DNA of 64,000 nt, from the NCBI RefSeq assembly GCF_008107625.1, contig NZ_SDKK01000007.1:160500-224499 (forward strand), written 5' to 3'. Made by a program: the position numbers and the translations under genes. The notes beneath the pieces are model-generated. The model was not told where the DNA came from, ran no database searches, and saw only the letters and a program-made list of their open reading frames with translations. This DNA comes from Zoogloea oleivorans (GTDB lineage Bacteria > Pseudomonadota > Gammaproteobacteria > Burkholderiales > Rhodocyclaceae). Within the stretch, counting starts at the first letter, position 1. Each line of letters opens with the position of its first letter. Of this stretch, positions 60,622-61,112 are shown one piece after another.

Positions 60622-60780
60622 GTTCAGATCTCCTGGATGAATAGAACGGTTGTTTTCAGCACTGACGAATTCCGGGTGTTGGGACCCATTTACCTTGCAA
60701 CCGGAATGCAGCCTTCGTGTCAGTTTTGCTCTTCGTATTCACACGCTGCGGCAAGCCTTGATCGGTGCGACAAGCATTCA

Positions 60781-60795
60781 GCAATCGCCGTGCCA
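60781..60795 (-). promoter_or_regulatory. Sigma-54 promoter of nifHDK
   Basis: On the minus strand TGGCACGGCGATTGC is a perfect TGGCACG-N4-TTGC element. The transcription start would be near 60770, leaving a leader of about 150 bases. Confidence 0.88.
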
Positions 60796-60875
60796 GATTC
60801 GAAAAAAATGCGCAAGCCACTGTTTAAAAAGAAAAATAATAAAAAATAGAGGTATCCAAAAGGGATTCCGGACTT

Positions 60876-60891
60876 TGTGTGGAATACGACA
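60876..60891. promoter_or_regulatory. NifA upstream activator site 1
   Basis: TGT-N10-ACA at 60876-60891, extended to a perfect CTTTGT-N10-ACAAAG palindrome (60873-60894). It lies about 106-121 bp upstream of the predicted nifH start, the usual place for NifA binding. Confidence 0.8.
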
Positions 60892-60904
60892 AAGGCCCCA
60901 GCGC

Positions 60905-60920
60905 TGTCAGGAATGACACA
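60905..60920. promoter_or_regulatory. NifA upstream activator site 2
   Basis: TGTCAGGAATGACACA fits TGT-N10-ACA exactly and lies 29 bp from site 1. It is about 130-145 bp before the predicted globin-operon start, so it could serve either promoter. Confidence 0.72.
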
Positions 60921-61022
60921 GGTCCTGCAATCCTTCAGTGGTCACCCTCCAAAAGCCGGCAGACACCGCCAAGCCCTTGACGGATAAGCGTTTATCCCAA
61001 AAGGCCGGGGTGTTTCGGGACG

Positions 61023-61037
61023 CGGCACAACAATTGC
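61023..61037 (+). promoter_or_regulatory. Sigma-54 promoter of globin-draTG operon
   Basis: CGGCACAACAATTGC has GG and GC in exact -24/-12 spacing, with only the first base of TGGCAC changed and a perfect TTGC. The start would be near 61049, about 64 bases before the globin gene. Confidence 0.68.
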
Positions 61038-61112
61038 CTATAGAAGAATGAACAGGCGACTGTCGGGCTCTTCGGCCCCGGCGCCCCCCGCGACATGCCA
61101 GGAGCGATCACC

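Follow-up and report, generated by a model that had tools for sequence, protein, structure and literature searches.

The nifH-nifJ region of Klebsiella is a divergent control region with shared NifA sites, in which two sigma-54 promoters, one of them that of nifH, lie around NifA upstream activator sequences (UASs). A similar layout is found in a 64,000-nucleotide stretch of the Zoogloea oleivorans genome, hereafter the window, in the 491 bp intergenic gap (60622-61112) that separates nifH from the plus-strand genes beside it. The partner of nifH differs however, being nifJ in Klebsiella and, in Zoogloea, a putative operon of a truncated (2-on-2) globin gene, an uncharacterised nif-associated gene designated X201, and draTG, the genes of the DraT/DraG off-switch of nitrogenase. 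We propose with good confidence that NifA and sigma-54 act in both directions from this gap, which would serve as a shared control region feeding both nifH and globin-X201-draTG.

A link between NifA and draTG has already been predicted elsewhere, with candidate NifA sites upstream of draTG placing these genes in the predicted NifA regulon of Magnetospirillum and Rhodospirillum (PMC4999443); these are however alphaproteobacteria, and the accessible part of that source mentions no globin or X201 head. In Acidithiobacillus ferrooxidans, nifHDK is likewise divergent from draTG, there within a regulator-draT-draG-nifA cluster, however the first gene is a response regulator and the accessible part of the report does not mention shared NifA sites (PMC2621215). 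Azoarcus BH72 carries draT in its nif cluster as draT-azo0536-dcrH1 (PMC8467165, PMC3916325), with azo0536, located downstream of draT (PMC8467165), predicted to have both RpoN and NifA sites (PMC3916325), whilst Northern blotting showed no response of draT itself to N2 fixation and draG1 was 19- to 24-fold up, as given in the excerpts available (PMC8467165). Neither DraT nor DraG was found in A1501, according to the accessible text (PMC2820453). That text and the accessible text of PMC6925177, PMC2907700, PMC7341956, PMC5748707, PMC9769520, and PMC2607301 offer no decisive evidence. The Paraburkholderia phymatum (P. phymatum) genes Bphy_7752 and Bphy_7807 are X201 homologues that, as in Zoogloea, stand divergent from nifH with a sigma-54 element facing X201, however no draTG or globin is annotated beside X201 in the stretches shown, and the UAS spacing differs. 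No description of the globin/X201 head, of draTG as its passenger, or of the contrast with loci in which draT is the gene nearest nifH was found in the open-licence papers searched.

The genes and elements concerned are, in window coordinates:
60781-60795, minus strand: nifH sigma-54 -24/-12 element, TGGCACGGCGATTGC, 10 of 10 positions
61023-61037, plus strand: globin-facing sigma-54 -24/-12 element, CGGCACAACAATTGC, 9 of 10 positions
60876-60891, plus strand: NifA-type UAS1, TGTGTGGAATACGACA, TGT-N10-ACA
60905-60920, plus strand: NifA-type UAS2, TGTCAGGAATGACACA, TGT-N10-ACA
59746-60621, minus strand: nifH, PF00142 and TIGR01287 above cut-off
61113-61682, plus strand: truncated (2-on-2) globin gene, PF01152, 115 bits
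61663-62250, plus strand: X201, uncharacterised nif-associated protein of 195 aa, its start overlapping the globin end
62274-63143, plus strand: draT, dinitrogenase reductase ADP-ribosyltransferase, PF07357, 334.8 bits
63136-64000, plus strand: draG, ADP-ribosyl-dinitrogen reductase hydrolase, TIGR02662, 379.2 bits (cut-off 337)

UASs usually lie ~80-200 bp upstream of a NifA-dependent promoter. Both TGT-N10-ACA sites are posed between the two divergent sigma-54 elements, with the centres of UAS1 and UAS2 respectively 102 and 131 bp from the -12 of the nifH element, and 153 and 124 bp from that of the globin-facing element, whose GG and GC are 10 bp apart. An earlier reading made from the letters alone (the sequence-only reading) had placed the same motifs in the same order and judged their distances suitable for both promoters, and both points hold. 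It had also described the operon as globin-draTG; the globin gene and draTG are indeed present, however the order is globin-X201-draT-draG, X201 having been overlooked. Both members of the DraT/DraG switch are assigned by family (PF07357 and TIGR02662). TGT-N10-ACA by itself is no rarity in the window (5 observed, 6.98 expected), with the occurrence of two such sites within the 491 bp gap having a Poisson probability of 0.0014 at the window rate, and sigma-54 matches with at most two mismatches occur at chance level (95 against 89.75 expected). As the globin-facing element carries one mismatch and such matches are at chance level, sequence alone would not settle the matter, and the evidence lies in conservation.

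The closest loci among those fetched (numbered with the prefix L) are the Zoogloea metagenome assemblies L075-L078, whose X201 is 91-92% identical to that of the window. Alignment of the window with L075, L076, and L077 shows the globin-facing 15-mer CGGCACAACAATTGC to be identical in all four loci between flanks that look poorly conserved, with L078, outside the alignment, carrying the same 15-mer. The nifH element is also identical in all four, the TGT and ACA of UAS1 are kept throughout, and UAS2 is kept in three, L076 having ACG. The sequence between these motifs looks largely diverged.

For a wider comparison, a DraT survey of 300 genomes of the order, 35 of them positive, was combined with an X201 probe of named genomes yielding 80 loci, the best 80 of the 106 matches listed; these loci include Rhodocyclales, Burkholderiales, methylotrophs, and some alpha- and gammaproteobacteria. 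Gaps were grouped according to which mapped gene stands closest opposite nifH, with group A facing globin/X201 (62 gaps) and group B facing draT (23 gaps). L066 (a copy of the window), one group A near-duplicate (63 reduced to 62), L121 (X201 2.4 kb from nifH, classed as other), and loci lacking a usable nifH match were left out. Reading of the neighbourhoods in the 35 DraT genomes placed draT nearest opposite nifH in 23 (17 within 600 bp, and 6 at 817-1581 bp, far enough for a further open reading frame (ORF) to fit in between) and a globin/X201 head facing nifH in three (L051, L057, L062); in L061 the globin/X201 head lies on a contig without nifH, and eight genomes are unclassed (L002, L036, L041, L049, L058, L059, L060, L065). 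Group A derives mostly from the X201 probe and group B from the DraT survey. Given this and the relatedness of the loci, the counts that follow are neither frequencies nor independent, a caution to be set beside those gathered below, and the presence of X201 in all group A loci is largely due to its use as the probe.

Within 600 bases of nifH, an element facing the head gene and matching at least 9 of 10 positions is present in 43/62 group A gaps (1.24 expected from shuffles), rising to 59/62 at 8 of 10 or better (8.56 expected), and TGT-N10-ACA is present in 55/62 (5.60 expected). In group B, TGT-N10-ACA is found in 22/23 gaps (1.46 expected), whereas a draT-facing element reaches at least 9 of 10 positions in none of the 23 (0.26 expected) and at least 8 of 10 in five (1.67 expected). 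A rescan to 1200 bases gave the same split, as did restriction to partners within 600 bp of nifH, where elements of at least 9 of 10 occur in 39/54 group A and 0/17 group B gaps. A matrix trained only on nifH-facing sites gave matches at p<=0.05 in 43/62 group A gaps, and in 3 of 12 group B gaps with draG next and 2 of 11 without. A second matrix, partly trained on group A sites and therefore circular for that group, where it was not used, gave p<=0.05 in 7/23 group B gaps, several of them weak RGGAAY-N5-TTGC sites. In view of these matches, it would be too strong to deny draT-nearest loci any sigma-54 element; such gaps carry at best a weaker one.

A nifH-facing element of at least 8 of 10 positions is present in all 85 loci compared, and 50 of the 62 group A gaps, the window included, hold both elements with TGT-N10-ACA between them. 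In these 50, the centre of the nearest UAS is at a median distance of 103 bp (42-159) from the nifH -12 and of 114 bp (38-212) from the other -12. Their 62 UAS sites share a longer common consensus around TTTGT..GAAACCCGACAAA, which UAS1 of the window resembles. Sites resembling the integration host factor (IHF) consensus, WATCARN4TTR, occur on the nifH side in 24/49 gaps (5.1 expected), with a weak candidate at the corresponding place in the window:
60813-60825, minus strand: putative IHF-like site lying between UAS1 and the promoter of nifH, matching at 8 of 9 informative positions

Expression evidence comes from P. phymatum, where BPHY_RS38250 (Bphy_7752; 51% identical to X201) is divergent from the nifH gene Bphy_7753, and BPHY_RS38505 (Bphy_7807; 50%) from the second nifH. 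In both gaps TGGTACGGATGTTGC faces X201, with TGT-N8-ACA in place of TGT-N10-ACA. In the accessible part of a study of nifA-mutant nodules, Table 1 of which comprises 142 changed plasmid genes, Bphy_7752 and Bphy_7807 have the lowest numbers printed, with log2 fold changes, to be read with care as to size, of -11.54 and -11.11 compared with -7.40 for nifH, and the genes following Bphy_7752 are also down (Bphy_7751, -7.11; Bphy_7750, -7.72) (PMC8305402). NifA dependence of X201 has thus been shown by others in this relative, although both genes are labelled plain hypothetical proteins in that table (PMC8305402), and no further paper on Bphy_7752 was found among the open-licence papers searched. 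Together with the conservation described above, this RNA-seq evidence on X201 leaves the sharing of NifA sites between the divergent sigma-54 promoters well supported. A perfect TGTCG-N4-CGACA, possibly a variant NifA site, stands in the middle of both P. phymatum gaps (L190 4562-5000 and L191 17116-17554) and recurs in L141.

Several observations weigh against the proposed control region. The first position of the globin-facing element is C instead of T, exact TGT-N10-ACA is missing in 7/62 group A gaps, and in 8/62 the head gene lies more than 600 bp from nifH, so that the element there may face another ORF. IHF-like sites are weaker on the side away from nifH (9/49 gaps, 3.5 expected), the best globin-side site in the window matching at 7 of 9 positions. 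The strongest expression support derives from gaps with another UAS spacing and with no globin or draTG annotated in the stretches shown. Furthermore, many transposases and other plasmid genes are also down in the accessible table, in which 11 further genes are given as NA for want of reads in the nifA mutant (PMC8305402), hence the care needed over the fold sizes.

The content of the operon is variable in group A. Globin, X201, draT, and draG occur together in 16/62 loci, globin and X201 without draTG in 19, X201 with neither globin nor draTG in 14, and X201 with draTG but no globin match in 11, the remaining combinations being X201 with draT (1/62) and globin and X201 with draG (1/62). Globin is thus present in 36/62 loci and draT stands behind X201 in 28/62, 23 of these 28 having an element of at least 9 of 10 positions. 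draTG is optional in the module, although in some loci it may be lost beyond the contig end, and it is the globin/X201 head to which the NifA promoter seems to belong, draTG being carried along downstream as a passenger. The sequence-only reading had predicted joint NifA control of nitrogenase, its off-switch, and a globin; the shared sites are well supported by conservation and, for X201, by the P. phymatum RNA-seq, whilst the draTG part describes an optional link, seen in only 28/62 loci. In Z. oleivorans, the position of draTG in tandem behind globin-X201 makes NifA control of the off-switch plausible, and we would predict it there, with the four genes probably read as one transcript.

How far draTG follows the head promoter is the point on which the first of three rival explanations turns. 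NifA might drive globin-X201 whilst draTG is transcribed mainly from a NifA-independent promoter inside X201, leaving the off-switch uncoupled from nitrogenase synthesis. A promoter so placed could drive draTG separately, and draT is not seen behind X201 in 34/62 group A loci, which suggests that draTG is an optional extra, although in some loci the contig stops shortly behind X201. We nevertheless judge this explanation unlikely, as a consensus scan of 60600-64000 shows no sigma-70-like promoter and no plus-strand terminator, X201 and draT are separated by 23 nt, and globin and X201, as well as draT and draG, overlap. The lack of a draT response in Azoarcus BH72 was measured in another organism, and the window differs in arrangement from the draT-nearest loci, none of which (0/23) has an element of at least 9 of 10 positions.

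It could also be argued that the UAS pair serves nifH only, with the globin-facing element driven by another enhancer-binding protein or non-functional. UAS1 is nearer nifH (102 versus 153 bp), though UAS2 is slightly nearer the globin promoter, and the genome encodes one NifA (702 bits, above the family cut-off) and, in addition, 20 NifA-like matches that fall short of this threshold. Conservation of the globin-facing element in all four aligned Zoogloea-type loci, its counterparts in 43/62 group A gaps, and the NifA dependence of the P. phymatum X201 genes in the accessible data (PMC8305402) nonetheless make such a division of labour improbable. X201 genes whose fetched surroundings include no nifH bear on the same question from both sides: L092, L095, and L127 have 10/10 elements of their own with TGT-N10-ACA at -129, and L085 and L118 (9/10) and L087 (8/10) also have TGT-N10-ACA, however seven have an element without TGT-N10-ACA (L083, L084, L100, L108, L130, L138, L147) and six have neither motif (L088, L090, L119, L139, L153, L154). 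The last rival concerns a palindrome near the globin promoter, which the sequence-only reading had suggested as the site of a further regulator:
60982-60997, no strand: imperfect 16 bp palindrome, GGATAAGCGTTTATCC, 14 of 16 positions, judged not to be a conserved element
Of the form GGATAA-N4-TTATCC, it ends 25 bp upstream of the globin-facing element, a position from which a regulator responding, for example, to nitric oxide (NO) or redox state might tune the globin operon. The palindrome is however absent from the three aligned Zoogloea relatives, occurs at a single place in its own genome, and was found among 192 fetched loci in five copies only, all of that same place, on which grounds it was rejected as a regulator site; that it binds a further regulator now seems very improbable.

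For the bidirectional control region itself, the following mechanism may be envisaged. NifA bound at the two central UASs would contact the sigma-54 holoenzyme (Esigma54) at nifH and at the globin operon, with IHF bending probably helping the contact, so that under low fixed nitrogen and low oxygen nitrogenase would be made together with the 2-on-2 globin and X201. DraT and DraG would be made by co-transcription, in step with their target, DraT staying latent, as is general biochemistry for this enzyme, until ammonium or energy signals activate it. The NifA of this genome (L192 176-1810, minus strand) carries C-X11-C-X19-C-X4-C at residue 412, a pattern that we take to be typical of oxygen-sensitive NifA, and the globin operon would on that account be on only at low oxygen and low fixed nitrogen. 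No nifL was recognised by eye among the ORFs of at least 150 aa in the first 4.5 kb of L192, no profile search having been made. The divergent neighbour of this nifA is a nifS-like ORF. A NtrC-like site was also sought in the gap and rejected, the best match reaching only 7 of the 12 positions of the NtrC consensus.

X201 has no Pfam or NCBIfam match at E <= 0.001. Its AlphaFold model (mean pLDDT 88) finds no PDB match by Foldseek at E <= 0.001, and a profile search of PDB sequences returned a single chance-level match (E 0.089). The family adjoins nifH in many genomes, and the company it keeps, namely globin in 36/62 group A loci and, in one case, a hemerythrin-like ORF adjoining a distant relative, hints that X201 may help nitrogenase by dealing with oxygen or NO in its surroundings, although this is a guess. 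Distant relatives of X201 (23-27% identical; L063 9833-10297 reverse-complemented, L071, and L074) adjoin an ORF that by eye is hemerythrin-like or iron-sulphur-protein-like, the order in L063 being draT, a 280-aa ORF, the distant X201 (25%), and the hemerythrin-like ORF.

Evenly poised, in our view, is the broader proposal that globin and X201 divergent from nifH form a general and overlooked NifA-driven nitrogenase module of beta- and some other proteobacteria, in which X201 is a nitrogenase-protection or regulatory protein as strictly NifA-controlled as nifH, with draTG placed behind the module in some lineages, including Zoogloea, and outside it in others. What stands between draT and nifH would then offer a testable explanation for a possible control of draT by nitrogen fixation in some diazotrophs but not others. 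X201 itself is an unstudied family, two members of which show the most negative values printed in the accessible nifA-mutant table (PMC8305402), and the engineering of ammonium-tolerant nitrogen fixation requires that the promoter feeding the off-switch be known.

The remaining nitrogenase structural genes follow nifH in the window:
58154-59602, minus strand: nifD, after nifH, TIGR01282
56528-58087, minus strand: nifK, after nifD, TIGR01286
On the other side of the gap, the globin gene most likely starts at ATG 61113, with AGGAG upstream. Its product has a Bac_globin domain and is closest to 2-on-2 structures, the best solved match being the 2-on-2 hemoglobin 2xyk (E 2.5e-26), which places it among the truncated (2-on-2) hemoglobins; ~60 N-terminal residues (61113-61290) precede the globin domain and lie outside the Pfam match. 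draG runs past the window edge to ~64077, the complete ORF being present in L051, and is followed by a further ORF at ~64097.

In the Methylotenera loci L099 and L110, an ORF that by eye resembles 6-phosphogluconate dehydrogenase lies between nifH and globin (~458 and ~490 bases upstream of nifH, respectively), placed behind the divergent sigma-54 element. In L126, L136, L145, and L148, the globin/X201 genes are preceded by an ORF of 141-149 aa that by eye resembles a response regulator, recalling the regulator described in A. ferrooxidans. Elsewhere in the window, the only other perfect TGGCAC-N5-TTGC (43704-43718, minus strand) lies ~45 bp upstream of an ORF (42131-43660, minus strand) that by eye resembles the small subunit of xanthine dehydrogenase, and purine breakdown may accordingly be under sigma-54 control.
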